A DNA stretch of 64,000 nt. It comes from Desulfuromonadaceae bacterium. Its GTDB lineage: Bacteria; Desulfobacterota; Desulfuromonadia; Geobacterales; Pseudopelobacteraceae. The translations under genes and the position numbers were made by a program. Positions 4,034 through 33,178 of the stretch are shown here, piece after piece (position 1 is the stretch's first letter; each line of letters begins with the position of its first letter). Below the pieces are notes generated by a model. The model saw nothing but the letters and a program-made list of their open reading frames with translations, ran no database searches and was not told the origin of the DNA. The stretch spans positions 1-64,000 of the forward strand of contig JAQTQX010000025.1 in NCBI GenBank assembly GCA_028712075.1, given 5' to 3'.

Positions 4034-7024
4034 ATGGCGAAGCGAATTGAAGTAGCATTACGGGCTGGTGTGCGCGATGCGAGAGGCGAACGCATCAAAC
4101 GTGAGATTGATCATTTTCTGCATCTGAACGTTGAGGATGTTCGTACTCTTGACGTGTACACGGTTGATGCGGCCCTGACAAAAAATGAGCTGGAACAGGC
4201 AGCAGCCGGCCCTTTCAGCGATCCGGTAATCCAGACATGGAGCATCGACCTGCCCTTGGCGACCGGCTTTGATTATGCAGTTGAAGTCGGTTTTCGTCCC
4301 GGTGTAACCGACAACGTAGGTCGCACCGCCCGGGAAGCGGTCGCCTATCTGACCGGACGTCCGTTTGCCGAAGGTGAGAACGTCTATTATTCGGTACAGT
4401 TCCTTCTTGCGGGTGGTTTGACGATTGTCGATGTTGAGAAAATTGTTACCGGCCTGCTCTGTAACACGCTTATCCAGCGATACAGCATCCTGTCAGCCGT
4501 TGATTTCAGTGCGAAAGGTGGCTTTCCGCCATTCGTACCAAAAGTCAGTGGTGCCACAAAAGTCGAGGTGCGCGAGATTGACCTGGAAGTCCCGGACGAT
4601 GAATTGCTCAAAATCAGCAAGGATGGCGTACTGGCTCTGACGCTGGAGGAGATGCAAATTATTCAGGGGCAGTACCGCGATCCGAAGGTGCTCGCGGCAC
4701 GCAAGGAGTTCGGGCTCGGCGCGAAGCCGACCGATGTGGAGCTGGAATGCCTGGCTCAGACCTGGTCGGAACACTGCAAGCACAAGATTTTTGCCGGCAC
4801 CGTGCAGTACGAGGATGAAAACGGCAACAGGCAGGAGATCAAGTCGTTGTTCAAGTCATTCATCCAGCGTACGACCAAAGATGTCCGCGAGCGGATGGGT
4901 GATAAGGATTTCTGTCTCTCCGTCTTCAAGGACAACGCCGGCGTCATTAAATTCAATGACCGGCATTCACTGGTGTTCAAGGTTGAAACGCACAATTCTC
5001 CATCGGCGCTTGATCCGTACGGCGGTGCGCTGACCGGCATCGTCGGCGTCAATCGTGATCCGTTCGGTACCGGACAAGGGGCAAAGCTGATCTTCAATAC
5101 CGATGTGTTCTGTTTTGCCGATCCGTTTTACGCCAAGCCGCTCCCCAGCCGTTTGCTACATCCCCGACGTATTTACGAGGGAGTTGTGGAGGGGGTCGAA
5201 CATGGCGGCAACAAGAGCGGCATTCCGACCGTCAACGGATCCCTCGTTTTCGACGAGCGCTTTGCCGGCAAGCCGCTGGTGTTCTGCGGTACCGCAGGGT
5301 TAATGCCCGCTGTGGTGAATGGCCAGCCGGGACACGACAAATATATCAAACCGGGCGATCTGATTGTTATGACCGGCGGGCGTATCGGCAAGGATGGCAT
5401 CCACGGTGCCACCTTCTCTTCCGAGGAGCTGAACGAAAACTCGCCGGTAACGGCGGTACAGATCGGTGATCCGATTACCCAGAAACGGATGTTTGACTTC
5501 CTGATTCGCGCCCGTGACAAGGGGTTGTATCGTTTTATCACCGACAACGGTGCCGGCGGTCTGTCATCTTCCATCGGTGAAATGGCGGGCGAATGCGGCG
5601 GCTGCCGGATGGACCTTGCCAGGGCACCGCTTAAATACCCCGGACTGAATCCGTGGGAAATCCTTATTTCTGAAGCCCAGGAACGGATGAGTCTGGCCGT
5701 GCCGCCCGAACAGATTGACGAATTTTGTGCCATGGCGGTACGCTTTGGTGTTGAAGCCACAGTACTGGGTGAATTTACCGATAACGGTGTCTTTCACATG
5801 CTCTATGGTGACCGCACCGTGGCCTGGCTGCCAATGGAATTCATGCACGAGGGGTTGCCCCCCATGCAGCTGCCGGCCAAGTGGACGCCCCCTCAGCATG
5901 CCGAACCGATGCTGGATGAAAAAGGGAATTACACCGATGACCTGAAGAAACTGTTGTCCGCTTTGAATATCTGCTCCAAGGAATCGGTTGTCCGCCGCTA
6001 TGACCATGAAGTGCAGGGGGGGTCTGTTGTCAAGCCATTCAGCGGCGTCAACAATGACGGCCCTTCCGATGCCGCCATCGTCAGGCCGATCCTCGATTCA
6101 TTCGAAGGTGTTGTGACCGCTCATGGTATCTGTCCCCGATATTCGGACATCGATACCTATCATATGACCGCTAACGCCGTTGACGAGGCGCTGCGCAACT
6201 ATGTGGCGGTCGGTGGTTCGCTGGACCTTGTTGCCGGTCTGGACAACTTTTGCTGGTGCGATCCGGTCCAGTCAGATAAAACCCCCGACGGCGCCTATAA
6301 AATGGCGCAGTTGGTCCGTTCCAATCAGGCACTCTACGATGTCTGCATGGCGTATAACCTGCCGCTCATCTCCGGCAAGGATTCCATGAAGAATGATTTT
6401 TATGATGGCACAACCAAGATTTCCATTCCTCCCACGTTGCTCTTTTCCGTTATCGGCAAGATTGAGGATGCCCGAAAAGCCGTCACCATGGATGTTAAAC
6501 GGCCGGGTGACATTGTGTACCTGCTTGGCGCAACCGGTGACGAGCTGGGTGGCTCTGAGTATTTTGCGCTCTCCGGTTCAATAGGCAACAAGGTACCGCT
6601 GGTGGATGCCGCCACGGCGTACCAGCGCTATCAGGCGTATCACGGAGCGGTTAATCAGGGGAGCGTTGCTTCCTGCCACGACCTCTCCGACGGCGGTCTG
6701 GCGGTTGCGGCTGCCGAGTCGGCTTTTGCCGGTGGTTACGGTATGAACCTTGATCTCTCTCGCGTATCCTGGAAAGGTGATGAGGCTGGCAAGAACGATT
6801 GCGCGCTGCTCTTCTCGGAATCTGCGTCCCGTCATTTGATAACGGTCCACCCGGAGCAGCGCAAGCAGTTCGAGAATATCATGCACGGCAACTGCTTTGC
6901 TTCCATCGGGGTTGTGACGGAAGAGACTAAACTTGCAATTACCGGACTGAACGGTGATGCTGTTATCACAGCATGTCTGGCTGAGTTGAAAGAGGCGTGG
7001 CAGCAGACGTTGCGGGAACTGTAG
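4034..7024 (+). CDS. purL: FGAM synthase, PurS-like/PurL fusion
   Basis: Phosphoribosylformylglycinamidine synthase, 996 residues, the ATP-dependent fourth step of purine synthesis. About the first 170 residues look like two PurS-type domains (MAKRIEVALRAGVRDARGE..., then FDYAVEVGFRPGVTDNVGR...), equivalent to the N-terminal domain of the large E. coli enzyme. The rest is the PurL catalytic core with QTWSEHCKHK (near 237), ETHNSPSAL (near 318) and the second half's CHDLSDGGL. No C-terminal glutaminase domain is present; that role falls to purQ at 8894. The architecture is intermediate between the PurSQL complex and the single-chain enzyme. Confidence 0.95.
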   Translation: MAKRIEVALRAGVRDARGERIKREIDHFLHLNVEDVRTLDVYTVDAALTKNELEQAAAGPFSDPVIQTWSIDLPLATGFDYAVEVGFRPGVTDNVGRTAREAVAYLTGRPFAEGENVYYSVQFLLAGGLTIVDVEKIVTGLLCNTLIQRYSILSAVDFSAKGGFPPFVPKVSGATKVEVREIDLEVPDDELLKISKDGVLALTLEEMQIIQGQYRDPKVLAARKEFGLGAKPTDVELECLAQTWSEHCKHKIFAGTVQYEDENGNRQEIKSLFKSFIQRTTKDVRERMGDKDFCLSVFKDNAGVIKFNDRHSLVFKVETHNSPSALDPYGGALTGIVGVNRDPFGTGQGAKLIFNTDVFCFADPFYAKPLPSRLLHPRRIYEGVVEGVEHGGNKSGIPTVNGSLVFDERFAGKPLVFCGTAGLMPAVVNGQPGHDKYIKPGDLIVMTGGRIGKDGIHGATFSSEELNENSPVTAVQIGDPITQKRMFDFLIRARDKGLYRFITDNGAGGLSSSIGEMAGECGGCRMDLARAPLKYPGLNPWEILISEAQERMSLAVPPEQIDEFCAMAVRFGVEATVLGEFTDNGVFHMLYGDRTVAWLPMEFMHEGLPPMQLPAKWTPPQHAEPMLDEKGNYTDDLKKLLSALNICSKESVVRRYDHEVQGGSVVKPFSGVNNDGPSDAAIVRPILDSFEGVVTAHGICPRYSDIDTYHMTANAVDEALRNYVAVGGSLDLVAGLDNFCWCDPVQSDKTPDGAYKMAQLVRSNQALYDVCMAYNLPLISGKDSMKNDFYDGTTKISIPPTLLFSVIGKIEDARKAVTMDVKRPGDIVYLLGATGDELGGSEYFALSGSIGNKVPLVDAATAYQRYQAYHGAVNQGSVASCHDLSDGGLAVAAAESAFAGGYGMNLDLSRVSWKGDEAGKNDCALLFSESASRHLITVHPEQRKQFENIMHGNCFASIGVVTEETKLAITGLNGDAVITACLAELKEAWQQTLREL

Positions 7025-7027
7025 CGT

Positions 7028-8851
7028 TTGGGCGAACAAGCAGCCATTCACCATACCCTGAAAACGGTCTTTGGTTTTCACCAGTTTCGTGCTCCGCAGC
7101 AGGAGGTCATCGAACGGGTAGTTGCTGGTGAGGATGTCTTTCTGGTCATGCCGACCGGCGGCGGCAAGTCGCTTTGCTACCAGGTGCCGGCGCTGCATCG
7201 GGATGGTGTGGCAATTGTTGTCTCACCGCTGATCGCGCTGATGAAGGATCAGGTTGATGCGCTGCTCGACAACGGCGTGCGCGCCGCCTGTCTCAATTCA
7301 TCGCTGACATCTGACGAAGCACGTTTTGTACTGCGCCAGGTACACCGCAACGAGCTTGACCTGTTGTACGTTGCACCGGAACGGCTGCTGCTGAGCGATT
7401 TTCTGGGTGTGCTGGCCAGCGTAAAACTGGCGCTGTTTGCCATTGACGAGGCGCACTGCATCTCTCAGTGGGGGCACGATTTCCGTCCTGATTATGTGAA
7501 ACTGGGGCAGCTTCGAAGTACGTTCCCGGACGTTCCGATTGTAGCGATGACGGCCACGGCGGATCCGGAGACCCGCAAGGATATTGTCAGACAGTTGGGG
7601 ATCGGGCAGGCTACGGTGTTTGTTGCCGGATTCGATCGCCCGAACATAACGTACACTGTTGTACCGAAGCAGAAGCCGTTCGTGCAGTTGACCCGGTTTT
7701 TGAATGGTCGTGATGATGAGTCCGGAATCATCTACGCCCTGAGCAGGAAGCGGGTCGAGCAGATTGCCGGCCAGTTGCAAAATGCAGGATTTTCCGCTGC
7801 CGCATACCACGCCGGGCTGTCCGACAAGGAGCGGAGCAGGGTGCAAAATGCTTTTCGCTGCGACGATCTGCGGATTGTAGTGGCCACTGTGGCGTTTGGC
7901 ATGGGGATCGACAAGCCGAACGTCCGGTTTGTTGTTCATTATGACATGCCGAAGAGCATTGAGAGTTACTATCAGGAGACCGGCCGGGCCGGACGTGATG
8001 GCCTCCCTTCCGAGGCGCTGATGCTGTTCGGAATGGGAGATGTCATGACTGCCCGTTCGTTGATTGAAAACAGCGACAATGCCGAACGGGTGCGGGTCGA
8101 ACTCCAGAAACTGAATGCCATGGTCGCCTACGGTGAGGCGCTTACCTGTCGCCGCCGGGCACTGCTCTCCTATTTTGGTGATCAGCGTGATGACGATTGT
8201 GGCAACTGCGATATCTGCACAGATCCGCCGCAGCGTTTCGATGCCAGTAAACAGGCTCAGAAAGCTCTTTCTTGCGTGTACCGGGTTGGTGAGCGGTTTG
8301 GTGTCAGACATGTCGTAGACGTGCTGCGCGGAGCGAAAAATCAGCGCATCACAGACCTGCGCCATGACGAACTGACAACCTACGGCATCGGTGCCGACCT
8401 GTCGACGGTGCAGTGGGAAAACATTTTTCGCCAGCTGATCCACCTTGGCTACCTGGTGCAAGACTTTACCCGCTACGGTGTGCTTGGCTTGTCACCGGCA
8501 GCACGTCCGGTACTCAAAGGTGAAATAGAGGTCATACTCGGCCTGCCACGTGCCGTAATCAAGCCTGAAGAGAAGGTGAAACGTCGCCGTGGGGCTGATT
8601 TCGGGCATCATCAGGAATTGTTCGACAATCTGCGCACACTGCGCAAGAGTATAGCCGATGCAGCCAGGGTGCCGCCGTTCGTTGTCTTCTCCGATGCAAC
8701 ACTGTTGGAAATGGCATCGAGCAGACCGCGTGACGAACGTGAACTGCTGGCGGTCACCGGAGTCGGGGAACATAAGCTGAGCAAATACGGCGTCGCTTTT
8801 CTGACTGTTATAAATGGCCGCGATATTGATTTCGACAAGAGTGGAACATAG
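7028..8851 (+). CDS. recQ: ATP-dependent DNA helicase RecQ
   Basis: A 607-residue 3'-5' superfamily 2 helicase. It has Walker A TGGGKSLCYQ (near 41), DEAH box IDEAHCISQWGHDFRPDY (near 139), SAT-like MTATAD, helicase motif VI with YYQETGRAGRDG (near 315), a zinc-binding region with CRRRALLSYF and CGNCDIC (near 390), an RQC winged-helix region and a C-terminal HRDC domain (about 530-600). The start is TTG 3 bp after the purL stop. It sits between purL and purQ, which is an unusual place for a repair gene and makes it part of a purine transcript. Confidence 0.95.
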   Translation: MGEQAAIHHTLKTVFGFHQFRAPQQEVIERVVAGEDVFLVMPTGGGKSLCYQVPALHRDGVAIVVSPLIALMKDQVDALLDNGVRAACLNSSLTSDEARFVLRQVHRNELDLLYVAPERLLLSDFLGVLASVKLALFAIDEAHCISQWGHDFRPDYVKLGQLRSTFPDVPIVAMTATADPETRKDIVRQLGIGQATVFVAGFDRPNITYTVVPKQKPFVQLTRFLNGRDDESGIIYALSRKRVEQIAGQLQNAGFSAAAYHAGLSDKERSRVQNAFRCDDLRIVVATVAFGMGIDKPNVRFVVHYDMPKSIESYYQETGRAGRDGLPSEALMLFGMGDVMTARSLIENSDNAERVRVELQKLNAMVAYGEALTCRRRALLSYFGDQRDDDCGNCDICTDPPQRFDASKQAQKALSCVYRVGERFGVRHVVDVLRGAKNQRITDLRHDELTTYGIGADLSTVQWENIFRQLIHLGYLVQDFTRYGVLGLSPAARPVLKGEIEVILGLPRAVIKPEEKVKRRRGADFGHHQELFDNLRTLRKSIADAARVPPFVVFSDATLLEMASSRPRDERELLAVTGVGEHKLSKYGVAFLTVINGRDIDFDKSGT

Positions 8852-8893
8852 CAATACAGTGGCAGTACATATGGGTAAGGAGAACAGCACGCA

Positions 8894-9721
8894 ATGAAAC
8901 AGACACGCGCAATCGTTATAACCGGCAACGGCACCAATTGTGAGATGGAGGCGGCTCATGCCTGTAAGCTGGGAGGCTTCGATGAGACTGTTATCGCGCA
9001 CATTGCCGAAATATTATCCGGGGATATCAGGCTTGATGATTTTCACTTTCTCAACCTGACCGGCGGTTTTCTGGACGGTGACGATCTCGGAAGCGCCAAG
9101 GCGCAGGCCAACCGTCTGAAAAATGCCTCAGTCGTCGGCACTGATGAAAAACTGGTCGAACAGTTCACCCGCTTTATCAGTAACGGCAAGCTGATCCTCG
9201 GGGTCTGCAACGGCTTTCAGCTTATGGTCAAGATGGGCATGCTGCCCGGATTTGACGGCAATTATCTGCAGCAGACGGTGACGCTGACCCACAATGATTG
9301 CGGCCGTTTTCAGGACCGCTGGACCTGTCTGAAGGTGGATTCTGATTCCCCCTGCGTTTTCACTAACGGCATCGCCAAAGGGATCTATCTGCCGGTGCGT
9401 CACGGAGAAGGAAAGTTTCTCTGTGATTCCGCTGCAACACTGGCACGGATTGAAGACGGACATCTGGCTGTGCTGCGCTACAGTGACGCCGGCTACACGG
9501 AGGCAGCCACGGAGTTCCCGGTCAATCCGAACGGCTCGACCAATGCCATTGCCGCCCTCTGCGACCCAACCGGTCGCCTGATGGGGATGATGCCGCATCC
9601 GGAGGCTTTTGTTCATTATACCCAGCATCCGCGCTGGACAAGAGAAACTCTTCCTGAAGAGGGTGATGGTCTGGTACTTTATAAAAATGCGGCTGAGCAT
9701 GTGAAAAGGAATCTTATCTGA
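8894..9721 (+). CDS. purQ: FGAM synthase glutaminase subunit
   Basis: Class I glutamine amidotransferase of 275 residues that supplies ammonia to PurL. The nucleophile elbow is GVCNGFQLMVKMG (Cys near 102), with the catalytic His and Glu in MMPHPEAF (near 237). It is longer than the roughly 230-residue Bacillus-type PurQ and resembles the glutaminase domain of large PurL proteins. The ATG follows a GGTAAGGAG ribosome site. Its TGA overlaps the purF ATG (TGATG), which suggests translational coupling. Confidence 0.93.
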   Translation: MKQTRAIVITGNGTNCEMEAAHACKLGGFDETVIAHIAEILSGDIRLDDFHFLNLTGGFLDGDDLGSAKAQANRLKNASVVGTDEKLVEQFTRFISNGKLILGVCNGFQLMVKMGMLPGFDGNYLQQTVTLTHNDCGRFQDRWTCLKVDSDSPCVFTNGIAKGIYLPVRHGEGKFLCDSAATLARIEDGHLAVLRYSDAGYTEAATEFPVNPNGSTNAIAALCDPTGRLMGMMPHPEAFVHYTQHPRWTRETLPEEGDGLVLYKNAAEHVKRNLI

Positions 9722-11166
9722 TGCAAACCGAAGTGGAGCCTCTACCTATGAAGCTGTCCCGTCCTCAAGAAGAATGTGGTGTTTTTGGTATTTACAATCA
9801 CTCGGAGGCATCTAACCTGACCTATCTCGGCCTCTATGCCCTTCAGCATCGTGGGCAGGAGAGCTGCGGTATTGTCTCCTCTGACGGTACTTCCCTGCAT
9901 GCCCACAAGCGGATGGGGTTGGTTGCCGATGTTTTCAGCAATCCTGACGTCTTTAAAAAACTGCCGGGAAGATCGGCTATCGGGCATGTACGCTATTCGA
10001 CCGCCGGAGCTTCGGTGGAGAAAAATGTGCAGCCGATCATGGTCGATTATTCGCGCGGTTCCATTTCAGTTGCCCACAACGGCAATCTGGTCAACGCCCA
10101 GCTGCTGAAAGCCGAGCTGGAAGCGTATGGTTCGATTTTTCAGACGACAATGGATACGGAAATAATTATCCACCTTATTGCAACGTACAAGACCAATTCG
10201 CTGGTTGATCGAATTGTGGAGGCATTGAAGCGCATCCAGGGTGCCTATTGCCTGATATTTCTGACCGAAACCCGCATGATTGCGGTGCGCGACCCGAACG
10301 GTTTTCGTCCGTTATGCCTTGGCAAACTTGGAGACAGCTGGGTAGTTGCCTCGGAAAGCTGCGCGCTTGATCTTATCGAAGCGACGTTTGTTCGTGAAAT
10401 TGAACCGGGTGAAATGGTGGTCTGCACCAAGGACGGAACCATCAAATCGCTGTTTCCGTTTAAAAAAATCGATCCGACTCCCTGTATTTTCGAGTTTGTC
10501 TATTTTGCCCGTCCCGACTCAACTATTTTCGGGAGAAATGTCTATCTGGCCCGCAAAGAATTGGGGCGGCAGCTGGCGCGCGAATATCCGGTTGATGCTG
10601 ATGTGGTCATTGCCGTGCCTGACTCGGGTGTTCCCGCTGCCATGGGATATGCCGAGGAGTCCGGTATTCCTTTTGAGCTGGGGCTGATTCGCAACCACTA
10701 TGTCGGACGGACATTCATCGAACCGGCCCAGTCAATTCGCCATTTCGGTGTCAAAATCAAACTCAATCCGGTACGCGAACTGCTTGAGGGAAAACGGGTA
10801 GTCGTGATTGATGATTCCATCGTACGTGGCACCACATCGCGCAAGATTGTCAAAATGGTGCGTAATGCCGGTGCGAAAGAGGTGCATCTGAGGATTTCAT
10901 CGCCTCCAACAAGCTATCCCTGTTATTACGGAATTGACACGCCCAATCGCAAGGAGCTGATCTCCTCGTCGCACACGATTGATGAAATCTGCCGTTATGT
11001 GACGGCCGATTCCCTTGGGTATCTTTCTGAAGAGGGACTGATTTCCTCAATTGGCCATGGTGAAACCCATTATTGCAAAGCCTGTTTTGCCGGTAATTAC
11101 CCGGTAGCATTCCCCAAACCTGTGGATATTCCGCAGATGGGATTATTCGAAGAGGAGCATGTGTGA
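9721..11166 (+). CDS. purF: Amidophosphoribosyltransferase
   Basis: First committed enzyme of purine synthesis (PRPP plus glutamine to phosphoribosylamine). The N-terminal Ntn glutaminase begins at Cys in ECGVFGIYNH after a short propeptide. The phosphoribosyltransferase half carries the PRPP loop VVVIDDSIVRGTTSRK near residue 360. Late cysteines (CKACFAGNYP near 462) suggest the Fe-S-containing Bacillus-type enzyme. A second possible start at 9748 has its own GGAG site and would leave a 9-residue propeptide. Confidence 0.97.
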   Translation: MQTEVEPLPMKLSRPQEECGVFGIYNHSEASNLTYLGLYALQHRGQESCGIVSSDGTSLHAHKRMGLVADVFSNPDVFKKLPGRSAIGHVRYSTAGASVEKNVQPIMVDYSRGSISVAHNGNLVNAQLLKAELEAYGSIFQTTMDTEIIIHLIATYKTNSLVDRIVEALKRIQGAYCLIFLTETRMIAVRDPNGFRPLCLGKLGDSWVVASESCALDLIEATFVREIEPGEMVVCTKDGTIKSLFPFKKIDPTPCIFEFVYFARPDSTIFGRNVYLARKELGRQLAREYPVDADVVIAVPDSGVPAAMGYAEESGIPFELGLIRNHYVGRTFIEPAQSIRHFGVKIKLNPVRELLEGKRVVVIDDSIVRGTTSRKIVKMVRNAGAKEVHLRISSPPTSYPCYYGIDTPNRKELISSSHTIDEICRYVTADSLGYLSEEGLISSIGHGETHYCKACFAGNYPVAFPKPVDIPQMGLFEEEHV

Positions 11167-11716
11167 CATGAGTGAACGCGATCAACTTAAGAAAATCATT
11201 CTGGATTTGTCGTATGAAAAACGTTTGGTGACACTTGCATCAGGTCGTCAGAGTGACTTTTATTTTGACGGCAAGCAGACGACACTCCACGCCGAGGGTG
11301 GTTTTCTCGTCGGCAAGCTGTTTTATGAAGCTATCAGGGATGTCGAAGGGGTCCAGGCGGTTGGCGGCATCACGCTGGGTGCTGATCCCATTGCCACGGC
11401 GACCTCAATTGCCGCCCATCTTGACGGTAAGAGCATTCATGCCTTTATCATCCGCAAAGAGCCGAAGGGACATGGTACCGGCCAATGGCTGGAAGGACGC
11501 AAGAATCTTCCTGCCGGTACCAGAGTTGTCATTGTGGAAGATGTCGTTACCACCGGCGGTTCCTCGATGAAGGCGGTGCGCCGTGCCGAAGAAGAGGGGT
11601 TGAAGGTCCTTGGCATTGTGACGCTTGTTGACCGCGAAGAGGGCGGACGGGAAAATATCGAGGCAGAAGGGTACTGGCTGAAGGCGCTCTTTGTGAAGTC
11701 AGAACTGGTTGGATGA
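11159..11716 (+). CDS. pyrE: Orotate phosphoribosyltransferase
   Basis: A 185-residue type I PRPP-binding transferase that makes OMP in pyrimidine synthesis. Visible features are the N-terminal SGRQSDFYFDGKQ segment, the KEPKGHGTGQWLEG loop and the PRPP signature VVIVEDVVTTGGSS near 125. The start is the ATG overlapping the purF end, or a second ATG 9 bp later at 11168 (MSERDQLKK) that would fit equally well. It joins a pyrimidine gene to the purine operon. Confidence 0.95.
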   Translation: MCDMSERDQLKKIILDLSYEKRLVTLASGRQSDFYFDGKQTTLHAEGGFLVGKLFYEAIRDVEGVQAVGGITLGADPIATATSIAAHLDGKSIHAFIIRKEPKGHGTGQWLEGRKNLPAGTRVVIVEDVVTTGGSSMKAVRRAEEEGLKVLGIVTLVDREEGGRENIEAEGYWLKALFVKSELVG

Positions 11717-12462
11717 AAGCGGTAAAGCAGCGACTCGACACTCTGGTTGTGGAACGAGGGCTTGCCGGTTCGCCGGAGATGGCGCGGGCGCTGATAATGG
11801 CGGGCCAGGTAGTGGTAGGGGATCACACGGTGGACAAGGCCGGTCAGCAGGTTGCGGCTGAAGCGGATATCCGCCTTAAGGGAGATCCGGCCCGTTATGT
11901 CAGTAGAGGTGGATTCAAGCTTCAGAAGGCGCTTGATGAGTTCGGCATTGATGTGGCAGGCATGGTCGCCGTCGACGTTGGCTCTTCTACCGGCGGTTTT
12001 ACGGATTGTCTTCTACAGGCTGGAGCAACAAAGGTTTTCGCCATAGATGTCGGTTATGGCCAACTGGCCTGGAAGCTGCAACAGGATCAGCGTGTTGTCA
12101 GTATGGAGAAGACCAATATTCGTTATGTCACACCGGATCAGCTTGATGATTCACCGGATCTGGCGGTCATTGATGCCTCGTTCATTTCACTTGCCAAAGT
12201 CCTTCCTGCTACGGCCCGTCTCGTAAAACCGGGTGGCCGGATCATCGCCCTGATCAAGCCGCAGTTTGAGGTGTGCAAGGGTGAAGTAGGGGAAGGGGGG
12301 GTCATACGCGACCCCGCTGCCCATGAAAAAGTCATTGAAGATGTCCGACAAACCGCATCCGCTCTGAGGATGACCGTTGGCGGGTTGTGCGAGTCACCAA
12401 TCACCGGGGCGGACGGCAATCGGGAGTTTCTGATATTGCTGGAATTACCGCAAGGAGGCTGA
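11713..12462 (+). CDS. tlyA: TlyA-family rRNA 2'-O-methyltransferase / hemolysin A-like
   Basis: A 249-residue protein with an N-terminal S4 RNA-binding domain (about 5-65, RLDTLVVERG) and an FtsJ-like SAM-dependent methyltransferase domain (VAVDVGSSTGGFTDCLLQ near 85-100, ALIKPQFEVCKGEVG near 180). In mycobacteria, TlyA methylates ribose in 16S and 23S rRNA; the same role is inferred here. The start overlaps the last codons of pyrE and the HIT gene follows 1 bp after the stop. Confidence 0.88.
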   Translation: MKAVKQRLDTLVVERGLAGSPEMARALIMAGQVVVGDHTVDKAGQQVAAEADIRLKGDPARYVSRGGFKLQKALDEFGIDVAGMVAVDVGSSTGGFTDCLLQAGATKVFAIDVGYGQLAWKLQQDQRVVSMEKTNIRYVTPDQLDDSPDLAVIDASFISLAKVLPATARLVKPGGRIIALIKPQFEVCKGEVGEGGVIRDPAAHEKVIEDVRQTASALRMTVGGLCESPITGADGNREFLILLELPQGG

Positions 12463-22136: not shown

Positions 22137-23315
22137 TTATGCTGAATGTTGACTTGTCTGTTTTAATGGCAGCGTTACAATGAAAGAAGTTCCCTTCCCC
22201 GATTTGCTGTCAACTCGTATGTCGCCGCCATGGTCTTTTACAATGCCGTACGAAACCGCCAGCCCAAGGCCGATGCCTTTTGGCTTGGTGGTGAAAAACG
22301 GTGTGAACAGCTTTTCCTGAACGTCAGGCTCGATTCCGAGACCGGTGTCGTGAATCTTGACGGAATAAACGCATGCTTCCTCGTCTCTCACTGTTGTAAC
22401 AGTTAGTACTCCTCCCGCTTCCATTGACTGCAGCCCATTAACTACCAGGTTGGTGAACACCTGCTGCAATAGATCACTGTCTCCCTCGAAAGCAATTCTG
22501 TCGCGTTGATATTTCCGTTCTATCCGGTATTGGTCAAGTGGTATCTGATGCCCGATCTGGTCCAGAATTTCATTAAGCAGTGATTCAATATAAAACGGGC
22601 GAATGATTACTTTTTTTGTTCTGGCAAAGGCCAACAGATTTGATACGATCCGTTCAACCCGCCCAACCTGTTGCATTATGGTTTCCACTTCAGATAAATC
22701 AGATTCATTCAGACGTTGCGACATTTCCAGCAACTCCGCGTTCCCCCGGATGATGGCCAGAGGATTGTTGATCTCATGGGCAACTCCTGATGCCAGCAAA
22801 CCGATACCTACCAGACGTTCAGCGCGAGCAAGTTCCTGTTGAGCTACCAGCAGCCACTGGTTGTTTTCATCAAGCTGTTTGGTTCGCTCTGCAACCTTTT
22901 CCTCTAAAGTCCTGTTGAGCAGCATAATCTCCTCTTCACGCTCAATGAGCCGATGCTTCATGATGTTGAATTCCTCAGCCATAATGGAAATCTCGTCATG
23001 CCCGCCAACAACAATATCCGGGATATGTTCGCCAAGTGCCAGAAGACGCGCCGCTTCCTCAACCGCTTTAATCGGGCGGGCCAGACTTGTTCCAAGCCAT
23101 GCCGAGAGAGACACACCTATCAGGGTAACAAAGAGTAATATAATGGAAAATACGACGTAAATGCGTGAACGCAAATCGAACAGATGTAGTCCTGGAATGC
23201 CGAGGTAGAGAGTTGATGCACCGATTATCCAGAACAGGAGAAGTGCTGTCACAAGCGGGGCCAATGTTGCCAGGGTCAGCTTAAGGCGGATTGAATATTT
23301 AAGATAGGGTCTCAC
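22137..23315 (-). CDS. Membrane sensor histidine kinase
   Basis: 392 residues: two membrane helices (about 15-35 and 53-76) with only a short periplasmic loop, a HAMP domain (about 77-130), a coiled coil, the H-box ASGVAHEINNPLAII with phospho-accepting His180, and a HATPase domain with N box (NLVVNGLQSM), DTGLGI and GLGLAVSYGIV. It abuts the NtrC-type regulator gene upstream. The small sensor loop suggests membrane or redox sensing rather than a large ligand. The signal could be linked to hydrogenase function, given the neighbouring operon. Confidence 0.92.
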   Translation of the reverse strand: MRPYLKYSIRLKLTLATLAPLVTALLLFWIIGASTLYLGIPGLHLFDLRSRIYVVFSIILLFVTLIGVSLSAWLGTSLARPIKAVEEAARLLALGEHIPDIVVGGHDEISIMAEEFNIMKHRLIEREEEIMLLNRTLEEKVAERTKQLDENNQWLLVAQQELARAERLVGIGLLASGVAHEINNPLAIIRGNAELLEMSQRLNESDLSEVETIMQQVGRVERIVSNLLAFARTKKVIIRPFYIESLLNEILDQIGHQIPLDQYRIERKYQRDRIAFEGDSDLLQQVFTNLVVNGLQSMEAGGVLTVTTVRDEEACVYSVKIHDTGLGIEPDVQEKLFTPFFTTKPKGIGLGLAVSYGIVKDHGGDIRVDSKSGKGTSFIVTLPLKQTSQHSA

Positions 23316-24680
23316 TTATTCTCTCTCGACCAAGCTGTATTCGGCAAGTTTGCGGTCCAGGGTTTTTCTGGATATGCCGAGAATCTCTGCCGTCCTGCTT
23401 TTATGGAAATCATTCTCTTTCAATACGGCAATAATATGTTGGCGCTCAATCATATCGAGGGCCAGCAGTGACGGAGCCAGTTTCGGAACAGGAGCGGGTT
23501 CTCTGCGGGCATCCAACGGTAGCAGATTAATGGTGATGGCGTCGCCTCTGGCCAGAATAACAGCGCGTTCGATAACATTTTCCAGTTCCCGCACATTACC
23601 CGGCCAGTCGTACTGCACGAGCGCCTGCAGGGCAACAGTGTCGATGTCGAGCACCTCTTTTTTCATACGGCGGCTGGAATATTTCAAAAAATGTCGGGCC
23701 AGCGGTTCGATGTCATCACGCCGTTCGCGGAGCGGCGGCAGCATGACGGAGATCACATTAAGGCGGTAGTACAGGTCCTCCCGGAAACGCCCCTCCCTGA
23801 CCTCATTCATCAGGTCTTTATTGGTTGCAGACACAAAGCGCACGTCCACTTTGCGAGTCCGGGTAGAACCCAGGACGATGAAGTCTTTTTCCTGAGTGAC
23901 CCGCAGCAGCTTTGCCTGTACCGCCGGACTGACATCGCCGATCTCGTCGAGAAACAGCGTACCGCCGTCGGCCTCTTCCAGCAACCCCTTCTGGTTCACA
24001 ACTGCACCGGTAAACGCGCCACGCACATGACCGAACAGCTGACTCTCCAGCAGAGTGTCGGATAAAACGGCGCAATTCAGCGAAACGAACGGTTTTGAGC
24101 TGCGTGGGCTGTTGCGATGCAGGGCACCGGCTATCAACTCCTTGCCGGTGCCGGACTCGCCCATGATCAGGATATTGGCATCGCTCTCGGCAACCTGCAG
24201 GGTGAGTTCGTAGACTGCCCGAAAGTTTTCACTCCGGAATATAATCGCATCTGTTGATCCAGTGCCTCGCTGAAGCTCTTCACGCAGCTGTTTGTTTTCC
24301 TGTGCCAGGCGGCGATGGTCGAGTATGCGCTCGAGCATGCTGAGCAGTTTTTCCTTCGGAAAAGGTTTGGTGATGTAATCGTACGCCCCTTGTTTGATAG
24401 CGTTGATAGCGTCATCAATTGTTCCGTGAGCGGTCATCATGACAACCGGGATGTCTGGCCAGCGCTTGCAGAGTTGGTCAAGCATCTGCAGGCCATCCAG
24501 ATCCGGCATGCGCACATCCTGCAAGATCACATCACACGGCATGGCAACCGTATTTTCAAGGCGCATTAACAGATCTGCTCCACGCGGAAAGGTTTCAACG
24601 GCATAACCGGTTGCCCGGAGAAGCTTATCCAGATAGCGGAGTATTTCTGCTTCGTCATCGCAGATGAAAATAGTTGGCAT
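23316..24680 (-). CDS. NtrC-family sigma-54 response regulator
   Basis: 454 residues: receiver domain (1-120, phospho-Asp55 in [15 protein letters not shown]), AAA+ sigma-54 interaction domain (about 140-370) with Walker A GESGTGKE, the sigma-54-contacting loop GAFTGA, Walker B FLDEIGD and an arginine-finger region, then a Fis-type helix-turn-helix (about 410-450, [19 protein letters not shown]). The stop abuts the kinase start. It is divergent from the hydrogenase operon, whose sigma-54 promoter and repeated upstream boxes are its most likely target. Confidence 0.95.
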
Positions 24681-26232: not shown

Positions 26233-27312
26233 ATGACGATCAGTAGACGTGGATTCTTGAAGGGGGTAACAGGAAGCGCAGTTGCTCTTGCTGCAGGTGT
26301 ACCGTCGGTAGAAGCTAAAATGTCCACAGTGCTTCCACCGGAAGCGGTAGGGTTGCTGTACGATGCGACCCTGTGTGTCGGATGTAAATCGTGCATGGTC
26401 AACTGCAAGACTAAGAACAGTGTGCCGGGTGGCGCACTGTACAAGGAAGATCTGGTTACCGGAGTTGTCGACGCCCTGATCTGCAAGAAATCAGAGCAGA
26501 CAGAGCCGATGGCGGCTCCTCCATATGAAACAGGTAGTATCAAAGGGAACGAGGGGATATGGGATGCTTCCCAGGATCTTTCCGGAAAAACCCTCAACAT
26601 AATCAAGGCATACAGAAACGGTACCGGCGAAAAGAAGGATTCTCCCACCAACGGACACGCCTTCTTTAAACAGCAGTGTCTACATTGTATTAGTCCGGCC
26701 TGCGTCTCCGTGTGCCCTCCCGGGGCTCTTCTTAAGGACCCGAAGACCGGGGTCGTATATTACGATGCATACCGCTGTATCGGCTGCCGCTACTGTCAGC
26801 TCGCCTGCCCGTTCAATATTCCTCGCTATGAGTGGGATTCTGCCTGGCCGGAAGTACGGAAATGCCAACTATGCAGACATCGATACAAAGACGGCAAGTA
26901 TGCTGCCTGTGCAGAATATTGCCCAACCGGCGCAACCATCTTCGGAAAAGTCACCGATCTTCGCGAAGAGGCAAAGAAACGGTTCGCCATGAAGCCGGGA
27001 GCCATCTACGATTTCCCTATACAGACGTTTAACTCCAGGGAAACTACCTCGCGGCCTGTTGCCGCCTATGCTGACAAGGTTTACGGTCTGACAGAGGCTG
27101 GAGGCACGCAGAACCTCATGCTCTCCGGTGTTTCTTTTGAACTGCTTGGATTCAGCAAAAATATTCCCGATGGTGCGCTTCCTGACCTGACCTGGGCCTA
27201 TATTGCCAAAATACCATGGGTCTTTCTTGGCGTAGCCATAGGCGGAACCACACTTTATGCCATCACACACAGGAAGAGCAGCGACAGCAAGGAGAAGGGG
27301 GGCCACCAATGA
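26233..27312 (+). CDS. hybA: Hydrogenase 4Fe-4S electron-transfer subunit
   Basis: 359 residues with a Tat signal (ISRRGFLKG, 3-11) and four cysteine clusters: CVGCKSCMVNC (near 50), CLHCISPACVSVC (near 150), CIGCRYCQLAC (near 182) and CQLCRHRYKDGKYAACAEYC (near 215). A single C-terminal membrane helix (IPWVFLGVAIGGTTLYAI) anchors it. It passes electrons from the small subunit to HybB. It starts 2 bp after hybS, and its TGA overlaps the hybB ATG. Confidence 0.93.
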   Translation: MTISRRGFLKGVTGSAVALAAGVPSVEAKMSTVLPPEAVGLLYDATLCVGCKSCMVNCKTKNSVPGGALYKEDLVTGVVDALICKKSEQTEPMAAPPYETGSIKGNEGIWDASQDLSGKTLNIIKAYRNGTGEKKDSPTNGHAFFKQQCLHCISPACVSVCPPGALLKDPKTGVVYYDAYRCIGCRYCQLACPFNIPRYEWDSAWPEVRKCQLCRHRYKDGKYAACAEYCPTGATIFGKVTDLREEAKKRFAMKPGAIYDFPIQTFNSRETTSRPVAAYADKVYGLTEAGGTQNLMLSGVSFELLGFSKNIPDGALPDLTWAYIAKIPWVFLGVAIGGTTLYAITHRKSSDSKEKGGHQ

Positions 27313-28511
27313 TTGATTTCACCAGGTATGTCGGTCCCAAAATGGGGGGCGCTTTCAATAAGCTGCTGGATGACAAGCATAGTGAACACCTGGGTATCAA
27401 GTTGGATACTCCGTTTACCAGAGTATTGGTTCTTCTGATACTTGGTGCGGCATGTGTCGGCGGTTACCGAATTATCTTCGGACTTGGCGCATCAACGAAC
27501 ATGAACGACTACTGGCCATGGGGATTATGGATCGCTTTTGATGTTCTGGGCGGTGTGGCCATGGCGGCCGGTGCGTTTATGATCGCGGGCGCTGTCTACA
27601 TATTGAATATGAAAAAGTTCAAGTGCATTGCCCGCGCTTCAATTCTGAACGCCTTTTTTGGCTATCTGCTGGCAGCTATTTCCATCACCTTTGACGTTGG
27701 CCGCTCGGCAGTCATCTGGCATCCGTTAATCATGTGGCAAATTAACTCGGTCATGTTCATCGTTGCCCTGCATCTGGTCTGTTATCTGACCACTCTTGCC
27801 ACGGAATCCAGCCCGATGGTGTTCGAAAAGCTTGGCTGGCATCGCACCCTGAAGTTCCTCCACCGTATAATGGTGGGGGCCGTCATGTTCGGCGTGGCCC
27901 TGTCCCTGCTTCACCAGTCATCACTGGGGGCAAATTACCTGATTCTGCCGAGCAAGCTCTCTCCGCTCTGGTACAACAAACATATTCCGTACATGTTCCT
28001 CGTTTCCGCGTTGATGATGGGGTTCTCCATGGTCAGTTTCGAAACGATCCTGACCAGCAAGGTATTCAACCATAAAGCGTCAAAGGCCGTTATTGAGGGT
28101 TTGGCAAAAGGGATTCTCTGCTTTGGCTGTCTCTACTTTGTCATGAAGACCGTCACCATCATTTCCGGGCCAGGACTTGGGGCATTATTCAACAACGGAT
28201 TTTTAGGCTTTATGTGGCTGCTGGAAATGGCTGTCGGAGTTGTCATCCCAATTCTGCTGTTGGCGAAGAGAGCAAATCGAAAGGACATCGATACGGTTTT
28301 TGTGGTGAGCATTCTGGTGATTCTCGGTGTTCTGCTCAACCGCCTGAATGTGGGCGTATTCGGGGTGTCGGACTATGCAAACCGGGTCGGCAGCGACTAC
28401 TTCCCTTCAATCATGGAGTTTATACTGACAGCGGGCATGATTGCCTTTGCAATACTGGGATTCAAGCTCTGTGCGAAATATCTGAACCTGTTTCCTGAAA
28501 CGGAGCATTGA
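27309..28511 (+). CDS. hybB: Hydrogenase membrane subunit, NrfD/HybB type
   Basis: A quinone-linked integral membrane subunit of about 400 residues with nine or ten membrane helices, including MNDYWPWGLWIAFDVLGG and HRIMVGAVMFGVALSLLHQS, typical of HybB/NrfD proteins. It delivers electrons from HybA to the menaquinone pool. I use the ATG at 27309 (ATGA overlap with hybA, GGAG site upstream); the open frame reaches 27216, but the extra N-terminus is a shadow of hybA. Confidence 0.93.
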   Translation: MIDFTRYVGPKMGGAFNKLLDDKHSEHLGIKLDTPFTRVLVLLILGAACVGGYRIIFGLGASTNMNDYWPWGLWIAFDVLGGVAMAAGAFMIAGAVYILNMKKFKCIARASILNAFFGYLLAAISITFDVGRSAVIWHPLIMWQINSVMFIVALHLVCYLTTLATESSPMVFEKLGWHRTLKFLHRIMVGAVMFGVALSLLHQSSLGANYLILPSKLSPLWYNKHIPYMFLVSALMMGFSMVSFETILTSKVFNHKASKAVIEGLAKGILCFGCLYFVMKTVTIISGPGLGALFNNGFLGFMWLLEMAVGVVIPILLLAKRANRKDIDTVFVVSILVILGVLLNRLNVGVFGVSDYANRVGSDYFPSIMEFILTAGMIAFAILGFKLCAKYLNLFPETEH

Positions 28512-30937: not shown

Positions 30938-33178
30938 ATGAAATCATCCTCGTACACTATACCCGCCGAAAATATTGGCAGCGCCTTCAGTTGGCACATG
31001 CTGCCGGCGTTTGATGCCTTTCCGGGAGGTTCCCAGTGGGTAAAAAATCTGAACCTGCGCCTCAGGATCCTTGGAGCGTCACGGAGCCACGTCCTGATCC
31101 AGGGGGAGGCCGGAACCTGGAAGGATCTTGCAGCTCGTCTTATCCATTATTATGGAGACCCAGCCAGTCCGGTACTGTTTCTTGATTGTGCTTCTCCACC
31201 TCTGGTAATCGCGAATTCAGAAAGAGGAATTCGTAACGTACTGCCGCTTGAGAATGCTCAGGAGACAGCTCTCTTTGGAACAATATCTGACTGTCCTGGT
31301 ACTGAACCTCTGGTGCGGCGCGGAGCTCTCGAACTCGCTGCCGGTGGAGACCTTTTTCTGCGCAATATCGACTCTCTGACTTCCGCCATGCAGGAAAAAC
31401 TTTGCCAATTTTTGGAAACGGGACAATTCGGACGTCTGATGGACAGTGAGTGGCGAGGAGGAGTCAGGATTATTGCCTCAAAGGAGACGCTACGGGCATT
31501 TAATGAAACGGGGCGTTTCAGGCGTTCTGGAGAGAGCGAATGGCGTGAAGCCATGATAACAGGTATTGAAACGAAAGGTGAGTCGCTGGCTCGATTGGCC
31601 GAATGCGGAAGGTTCAACAAAGCTCTTTTCAAAAAACTGAGTGCGGAAACGATAGATATGATGCCTCTCAATGAACGAAAGAAGGATATTCCGGTGATGA
31701 CATCCTGTCTGCTGAAATCACTGAATGCGCAACATCATAAATGTATACAGCGACTCTCCCAGAAGGCCCATAATTTACTCATTGACCATGATTGGCCACT
31801 CAACTGCAGCGAATTATATCAAGTACTCAGCCGGGCTGTTATTCTCTGTAATGACGAAGAAGTAGGCGCCGAACATATTGTCCCTCAGAAATCGCCGTTC
31901 CCTGACGGTCGTTTCAACCTCCTGACCTTGGCTCTGGCTGAAAAATTTACCCACCGACCTGATTTTCCTCGTGTGCTCCGCAAAATATCGGTCCCGTTTT
32001 TTCTGCTGCTTACCGTATATGCCCTGCTGGGCCCTCAGTATGGCAATGCTGCCAACCTGGCGGTCTGGACACTCTGGTGGCCATCGCTTCTGTTAACCAC
32101 GCTGTTCTTTGCCCGTGGCTGGTGCAGTTGGTGCCCACTTGAGGCCATTAGTGAATTCATCGGTGCAAAAACCGGTGTAGTGCGAAACCCCGATACCTGG
32201 CTGCGTCTTTGGGGGCCGACTCTCAGCTTAAGCGGCATCGTGTTGATACTGCTGGTGGAGCAGGCTTCCGGCATGTTCTCCCGGTCTTTTGCCACCGGAT
32301 TATTACTGTCCGGACTTTTTGTGGCCACCGCTACAAGCGACCTGATACTTGGAAGGCGTGGCTGGTGCAAATATCTTTGTCCGTTGGGACGAATCGTTGG
32401 CCTCATGTCAAGAATGTCCTTTCTGGAGATGCACAGCAACCGCACTGTCTGCGCCGTTCGTTGCCGGATTGATGAATGCGTCAAGGAGAAAGAGTGCCCG
32501 ATGGGGCTTCATCCATCCGGCATTGATAATTCCGACCATTGTATTCTTTGTCTTGATTGCGTACGGAACTGCACGCATCATGCAATGCAGCTTGACATCA
32601 GAAATCCTGTTCAGGGGCTCTTAAACAACGACAGACGTGGATTTAACGAGGCGTTTTTCAGCGTGACCCTGGTAGGCGTCATCATTGCTGCCAAGGCGAC
32701 TCCGCTTGTTGCGGGGCGCAGGCTGGAAGTTTTCTCCCACACGCTCTGGAGTCTGCCCGAGTTTATATTGGCTCTTTTCATTTCAGCTGTTTTCACGGGG
32801 ACGGCGATGCTTGTTTCCGCCGGAGTTCGGGGACATGGATGGAAACCGGTTTTTGCTGCGTGCGGAATTGCGTACCTGCCAATGGCATTTACCGGGCTGT
32901 TTGTCTTATATTACAGGGCATTGGTGGAGGGGGGTGCACAACTGGTACCGCTGCTGCTTACTGCAACCGGTTTTGGACAGTGGCTTGATATTGAACGGCT
33001 TACCCCTGAATTCGGTACCCTGCGTCTGCTGATTTACCCGATTATCTTGGCCGGCGCACTCTCTTCGTGGCTTGTTCTGGGGCGTCTGCACGAGAAACAG
33101 AGCAGGAATGATGCCGGGTTCATCGGACATCGGCTGCTGGTACTGTGTGCTGCTATACTATTTATGCTTGTGTTGTAG
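30938..33178 (+). CDS. Degenerate AAA+ / membrane polyferredoxin fusion
   Basis: 746 residues. Residues about 30-320 resemble the AAA+ domain of sigma-54 activators but lack its working parts: Walker A is GEAGTWKD (56-63, canonical GESGTGKE), Walker B is FLRNID (140-145, canonical FLDEIG) and the GAFTGA loop is absent. Residues about 350-746 form a NapH/NosR-type protein: several membrane helices, CSWCP (396-400), CKYLCP (477-482), C-x3-C-x3-C style cysteines (505-520) and a classical CILCLDCVRNC ferredoxin motif (535-545), then four more helices. It has no helix-turn-helix. Position after hybD suggests a redox or assembly role tied to the hydrogenase. Confidence 0.88.
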   Translation: MKSSSYTIPAENIGSAFSWHMLPAFDAFPGGSQWVKNLNLRLRILGASRSHVLIQGEAGTWKDLAARLIHYYGDPASPVLFLDCASPPLVIANSERGIRNVLPLENAQETALFGTISDCPGTEPLVRRGALELAAGGDLFLRNIDSLTSAMQEKLCQFLETGQFGRLMDSEWRGGVRIIASKETLRAFNETGRFRRSGESEWREAMITGIETKGESLARLAECGRFNKALFKKLSAETIDMMPLNERKKDIPVMTSCLLKSLNAQHHKCIQRLSQKAHNLLIDHDWPLNCSELYQVLSRAVILCNDEEVGAEHIVPQKSPFPDGRFNLLTLALAEKFTHRPDFPRVLRKISVPFFLLLTVYALLGPQYGNAANLAVWTLWWPSLLLTTLFFARGWCSWCPLEAISEFIGAKTGVVRNPDTWLRLWGPTLSLSGIVLILLVEQASGMFSRSFATGLLLSGLFVATATSDLILGRRGWCKYLCPLGRIVGLMSRMSFLEMHSNRTVCAVRCRIDECVKEKECPMGLHPSGIDNSDHCILCLDCVRNCTHHAMQLDIRNPVQGLLNNDRRGFNEAFFSVTLVGVIIAAKATPLVAGRRLEVFSHTLWSLPEFILALFISAVFTGTAMLVSAGVRGHGWKPVFAACGIAYLPMAFTGLFVLYYRALVEGGAQLVPLLLTATGFGQWLDIERLTPEFGTLRLLIYPIILAGALSSWLVLGRLHEKQSRNDAGFIGHRLLVLCAAILFMLVL

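Follow-up and report, generated by a model that had tools for sequence, protein, structure and literature searches.

The closest described counterparts of the protein analyzed here are of two kinds. With the bacterial enhancer-binding proteins (NtrC1/NtrC4, ZraR, FlrC, FleQ), it has in common an AAA+ fold and a lid; unlike these proteins, it lacks the Walker B Asp-Glu pair, the GAFTGA loop, the Arg finger, the sensor II Arg and a DNA-binding HTH of the Fis type, and its AAA+ domain is joined to a membrane protein. The second kind comprises NapH, NosR and RdhC (PceC), all of which contain a module of four helices and two CX3CP motifs (PMC5928378); in NapH, this module has been proposed to be the quinol-oxidising domain, and function depends on the Cys motifs (PMC5928378). 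The protein analyzed here likewise combines four membrane helices with a pair of cytosolic Cys-Pro motifs (compare PMC5928378, PMC5449189) and shares with NapH and NosR two Cys sets of the [4Fe-4S] type (PMC5928378, PMC5449189). It differs from the NapH-type proteins in its first motif, which is CX2CP, in the spacing of its first cluster set (C-x3-C-x4-C-x5-C), and in the presence of about five extra C-terminal helices and an N-terminal AAA+ domain, to which the family normally adds a cyclic nucleotide-binding (CNB) domain.

Architecture of the window protein

The window, i.e. the whole stretch of 64,000 nucleotides that was analyzed (contig JAQTQX010000025.1 of a Desulfuromonadaceae bacterium), contains at 30938-33178 on the forward strand a single continuous frame that starts with ATG and encodes 746 amino acids. 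As stated in a preliminary description of this DNA, the gene lies right after a hydrogenase maturation gene: its 5' neighbour is hybD, at a distance of 185 bp, and convergent genes for a DUF1450 protein and a ferritin lie on its 3' side. Further upstream, the listed hybA and hybB ORFs (window 26233-28511) overlap by about 97 bases (27216-27312), and the start of hybB is probably located further downstream. The features of the ORF are as follows.

30938..33178, +: whole ORF, 746 aa, CNB-less pseudo-AAA+ / membrane polyferredoxin fusion
31007..31666, +: NtrC-type AAA+ alpha/beta core, predicted to be catalytically dead, residues 24-243 (Pfam Sigma54_activat; VIA Z 27.3 to 6luf and 3dzd)
31103..31123, +: degenerate Walker A, GEAGTWK, residues 56-62
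31286..31309, +: place of the GAFTGA loop, reading SDCPGTEP, residues 117-124
31352..31372, +: place of Walker B, LFLRNID, residues 139-145, without Asp-Glu
31391..31480, +: diverged 30-codon tandem duplication, copy 1, about residues 152-181, boundaries approximate
31481..31570, +: diverged 30-codon tandem duplication, copy 2, about residues 182-211
31673..31885, +: AAA+ lid domain, residues 246-316, sensor II Arg replaced (WPLNCSEL)
31970..32350, +: four-helix membrane module TM1-TM4, residues 345-471
32123..32137, +: CxxCP motif, Cys396/399, predicted cytosolic
32366..32383, +: CxxxCP motif, Cys477/481, predicted cytosolic
32450..32572, +: ferredoxin-like loop with 8 invariant Cys (505, 509, 514, 520 and 535, 538, 541, 545), two presumed [4Fe-4S]
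32642..33172, +: C-terminal membrane helices, residues 569-745, added to the four-helix NapH-type module

Three Pfam matches follow one another from the N- to the C-terminus, namely Sigma54_activat (59 bits, residues 37-196), AAA_lid_14 (55 bits, residues 246-316) and Fer4_5 (32 bits), so that a single ORF indeed joins an AAA+ domain to a NapH-like membrane Fe-S protein, as had been proposed. The NapH model TIGR02163 (NCBIfam) matched residues 387-552 with 44.7 bits, well below its 213-bit cut-off. The Pfam scan of the window protein detected neither an HTH family (the NtrC-type regulator at 23316 shows HTH_8) nor an FMN-binding family, i.e. the extracytoplasmic domain of NosR and RdhC. The AlphaFold2 model (mean pLDDT 84.6) places the AAA+ domain at about residues 23-319 and 8-9 membrane helices past residue 345.

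When the model was compared with known structures (Foldseek, VIA-align), the AAA+ part matched FlrC, NtrC4, NtrC1, LuxO and FleQ (Z ~27, rmsd ~2, ~240 residues), and the structure matches of the whole model were confined to residues 23-319, the fold being that of NtrC-type AAA+ domains. The preliminary description of a dead domain that keeps this fold is thus borne out, and so are the reported losses of Walker B, which reads FLRNID with no DE, and of GAFTGA, in whose place SDCPGTEP stands. For Walker A (GEAGTWK), one Gly is indeed gone, but it is the third Gly of GxxGxGK, replaced by Trp before the Lys, and not the second Gly as had been reported. The Arg finger and the sensor II Arg are both missing as well. 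In an alignment of ~80 family members, for which the active NtrC response regulator encoded in the window served as the positive control, the Walker B Asp-Glu, GAFTGA, the Arg finger and the sensor II Arg were found in none; Walker A differs by group, being intact in most cyanobacteria and several Desulfobulbales and reading GTWK in canonical Geobacterales. The N-terminal half of the window protein is, on the predicted model, a catalytically dead NtrC-type AAA+ domain, which settles the question of the fold as far as prediction allows. Among the other weak Sigma54_activat matches in the genome, one proved to be ClpB and another a GAF-domain regulator with GAFTGA and DE intact.

The Fe-S part contains 12 Cys in four motifs (CxxCP 396/399, CxxxCP 477/481, C505-C509-C514-C520P and C535-C538-C541-C545), in agreement with the earlier count of at least four Cys motifs. 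All 12 are invariant in 45/45 family members and lie on the predicted cytosolic side. Judged from sequence and model, the four NapH-type helices, the two cytosolic Cys-Pro motifs and the two [4Fe-4S] Cys sets are all present, with partly non-standard spacing. One genome (G022) encodes a 629-aa Fe-S membrane protein that stands alone, with neither AAA+ nor CNB, and is related to residues 343-707 (L029, 85-1974); it is possibly a simpler relative of the membrane half.

Spread of the family and derivation of the window copy

A single-sequence scan of genome contigs for relatives returned nothing, and the alignment-profile scan gave 279 confirmed relatives in GTDB genomes, the best 80 of which come from Geobacterales, other Desulfuromonadia, Desulfobulbales, an Elusimicrobium and cyanobacteria. 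Presence of the gene among relatives is patchy: a protein search of 97-98 related genomes identified homologs in 27 other genomes (one of them a fragment), each in one continuous frame and most of them 57-64% identical. Full-length homologs measure ~855-985 aa stop to stop, the usual form being ~860 aa, and every full-length member tested carries cNMP_binding, Sigma54_activat or Sigma54_activ_2, AAA_lid_14 and Fer4_5 (Pfam). The window protein has the parts that define the family, a dead AAA+ domain with its lid and then the 12-Cys membrane Fe-S module. The same joined frame in hundreds of loci rules out a frameshift artefact; the fusion is genuine, ancient and widespread. We found no published description of the CNB / pseudo-AAA+ / polyferredoxin architecture in the open-access literature.

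The canonical Geobacterales homologs (e.g. L054, 858 aa) are 57-64% identical to the window protein over the AAA+ and Fe-S parts; unlike the window protein, they possess the CNB domain, lack the 30-codon duplication and generally do not lie beside hyb. Cyanobacterial members such as WP_281009908.1 (annotated 'cyclic nucleotide-binding domain-containing protein') and BAZ78296.1 ('nitrogen assimilation regulatory protein') show the same order of CNB, AAA+ and Fe-S membrane parts at 25% identity over most of their length, and differ from the window protein in that Walker A is kept, the cyclic-nucleotide cassette is lost, the hosts tested are without sigma-54 and cysK often lies downstream.

Relatives carry ~145 additional N-terminal residues that constitute the CNB domain, and the window protein is homologous to them from about residue 10 onwards, within the linker that follows this domain. 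At least 190 residues precede Walker A in all other members save two, L084 and L102, that are cut by a contig end. The window frame extends from stop to stop over 782 codons, and no CNB-like sequence was detected in the 36 extra upstream codons. A search for a CNB domain moved elsewhere in the genome gave as its best match a weak one (28%) on another contig. In the tree, the window sequence is nested inside 28 canonical CNB-bearing Geobacterales sequences (support 0.993), and the loss of the CNB is therefore derived. We are all but certain that the window protein belongs to the CNB / pseudo-AAA+ / polyferredoxin family and has lost its CNB, with the proviso that the CNB-less form was seen in one genome only and an assembly error at the 5' end of the gene may lie behind the absence.

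An internal echo (residues 160-173 and 190-203) had been taken as a sign of local duplication. No other self-similar diagonal of the ORF is as strong as the one at the corresponding 30-codon offset (29/45 bases at residue 160); identity over 90 bp is just 40/90, local alignment alone is marginal (p ~0.05), and a direct-repeat search of the window DNA did not pick up the echo. Comparison with homologs decides the matter: the window protein has a 30-residue in-frame insertion relative to every homolog, and both copies align to the same homolog stretch, in support of an old tandem duplication. Residues 166-190, at the duplication junction, are disordered in the AlphaFold2 model. By sequence comparison, then, the echo is a diverged 30-codon tandem duplication, present in the window copy only, and the earlier interpretation holds.

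Genomic context and rival readings

Several genes in the neighbourhood of family members point to cyclic nucleotides. The phosphate-binding cassette of the CNB, GERAILTxEPRTADVRA, with its Glu and Arg, is kept in Geobacterales (L054-L078) and lost in cyanobacterial members (L100-L132), and Walker A shows mostly the opposite pattern. In a sister clade (35-38% identity), an Apyc1-family MBL phosphodiesterase adjoins the family gene in four loci (L081-L084) and a class III cyclase in two of these (L082 and L083); the above-cut-off Apyc1-family genes of the genomes G016, G115 and G116 (1, 2 and 1, respectively) are all neighbours of the family gene. Phages and bacteria both encode Apyc1-like proteins, which cleave cyclic mononucleotides (PMC9117128). 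In a further locus of the sister clade (L144, genome G029; 4327-5334 and 6712-8910), the family gene is split by a transposase-like ORF, and the gene immediately downstream encodes a CHASE2-type protein that contains a class III cyclase domain. In the canonical clade, window included, neither a cyclase nor a phosphodiesterase was found next to the gene; class III and class I cyclases were not detected in the canonical genomes G004, G008 and G030, nor was a class I adenylate cyclase in any of the seven genomes tested.

Two further neighbours recur. The first is a short membrane protein (~150 aa) that matches no Pfam family and is encoded next to the family gene in L081 (3151-3603), L082 (7312-7737), L083 (~11131-11829), L087 (1299-1766), L088, L089, L090 and L107; it spans group-2 Geobacteraceae, Desulfobulbales and an Elusimicrobium and is a probable conserved partner. 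In ten cyanobacterial loci (L051, L052, L108, L116, L119, L121, L123, L125, L129 and L130), cysK comes immediately after the family gene in the same orientation, which hints at a connection to sulfur or cysteine metabolism.

The two halves of the window protein evolve under different regimes. Among 29 sequences, the AAA+ part of the window copy has the longest root-to-tip distance (0.94 vs. a mean of 0.68, sd 0.11), whereas that of the Fe-S/TM part is average; at otherwise invariant sites, the window copy is changed in 9/74 positions of the AAA+ and lid and in 3/84 positions of the TM/Fe-S part. Thus, the AAA+ module is under weaker constraint and drifting, and the Fe-S module stays conserved. 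The acceleration of the AAA+ part, along with the loss of the CNB and the start region, the disordered insert and the patchy presence in relatives, would also fit a decaying pseudogene of the canonical gene, which has lost its 5' part (CNB, promoter and ribosome-binding site), has gained an insert and is on its way to being lost; no clear Shine-Dalgarno sequence was found before the window ATG, so that expression of this copy is uncertain. However, neutral drift simulated over the terminal branch produced a mean of ~12 stops, and none of 300 runs remained stop-free, as the 746 codons of the window copy do; most of the terminal branch was therefore under selection. The intact Cys (12/12) and the normal rate of the Fe-S/TM part speak against decay as well. 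A recent inactivation, accompanied by less than ~5% change, may have occurred, but we consider the pseudogene explanation, as a whole, unlikely.

Still less probable, in our estimate, is a redox-sensing regulator, the reading closest to the preliminary description, which had envisaged an anti-activator that binds sigma-54 or the true regulator. Here the Fe-S module would sense the redox state of the membrane, with the dead AAA+ domain sequestering an enhancer-binding protein (e.g. the NtrC at 23316), sigma-54 or another AAA+ partner; the well-kept AAA+ fold could co-assemble with active subunits, and sigma-54 is present in the window genome, as it is in the three other Desulfobacterota-type genomes tested and in the Elusimicrobium genome. 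A sigma-54 role as the function of the family is not supported, given the absence of GAFTGA from all members and of sigma-54 from 13/13 cyanobacterial genomes that carry the family; moreover, the AAA+ domain is the least constrained part of the window protein. The connection to hyb fared no better. HybL occurs in 91/98 relatives, which makes co-occurrence with hyb uninformative, and synteny was used instead: among 20 homolog loci, a single one (L048) has a hyb-type hydrogenase within ~10 kb, encoded on the opposite strand; in ten relatives (HybL up to 92% identical), no family gene follows the hyb operon; and, when coordinates were compared, close relatives of the regulator at 23316 were found near hyb in many genomes, with the family gene not beside them. 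Hence the genomic survey that had been proposed for the fusion and hyb operons revealed no conserved synteny, and the same 20 loci showed no recurrent operon partner in canonical Geobacterales. A kinase / NtrC-type regulator pair is divergent from hyb in the window (22137-24680), and relatives of this pair (regulator 62%, kinase 45-47%) are divergent from the canonical gene in L038 (13180-16558) and L039 (9815-13218). The regulator in these two loci, being of the same subfamily, counts in favour of a regulatory role, and the pair is a lead for the regulation of the canonical gene. The window copy is probably not a hydrogenase regulator and would sit beside hyb by rearrangement. Least credible of all, and very improbable, is a membrane effector of a Pycsar-like defence, in which a cyclase signal would trigger the CNB and the membrane part would harm the cell. 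A weak match of the CNB region to PycTIR models (46 bits in L082) and the presence of cyclases next to some group-2 members speak for it, but the PADLOC matches cover the generic CNB domain only, no recurrent defence neighbours were seen in the clades examined, and the neighbouring phosphodiesterase together with twelve conserved redox Cys fits homeostatic signalling better.

Proposed role of the family

The interpretation we favour, at about an even chance, is that the family consists of cyclic nucleotide-responsive membrane electron-transfer proteins with a dead AAA+ linker, the window copy being a derived version that has no input. The canonical protein is built of a CNB domain, a dead NtrC-type AAA+ domain with its lid, a NapH-like four-helix module, two cytosolic clusters presumed to be [4Fe-4S], and some five additional helices. 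By analogy with NapH, NosR and RdhC, the conserved half likely links the quinol pool to a redox partner by electron transfer. The soluble N-terminal half would be a ligand-controlled regulatory or oligomerisation module, in which the CNB detects a cyclic nucleotide and the AAA+ domain, itself non-hydrolysing, relays the change or acts as a scaffold. We put forward this mechanism of regulated electron transfer, including quinone use and control by a cyclic nucleotide, tentatively and with somewhat less than even confidence, drawing on the analogy with described systems. In the window lineage, the CNB was deleted, a 30-codon duplication appeared in the AAA+ core and constraint on the AAA+ domain was relaxed, with the Fe-S part kept; the resulting protein probably transfers electrons without regulation or under some other control.

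A bolder version, which we regard as possible but on the doubtful side, is an undescribed second-messenger system, whereby a dedicated cyclase and an Apyc1-type phosphodiesterase would set the level of the messenger, the CNB would read it, the dead AAA+ domain would relay it, and electron transfer through the membrane Fe-S part would be gated. To our knowledge, control of a membrane redox protein by a cyclic nucleotide through a pseudo-ATPase is known in no characterised bacterial system.

Individual members are currently annotated as transcription regulators or as generic CNB proteins, and the present findings warn against the annotation of these genes as sigma-54 regulators. The family is of greater interest than the window copy, which offers a natural experiment on what remains once the sensor is lost. 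Should the mechanism prove correct, a membrane redox protein would be under the direct control of a cyclic nucleotide, exerted via a pseudo-ATPase; if the second-messenger system is real, electron flow would be controlled directly, without transcription, and the window copy would be a natural sensor-deletion variant.
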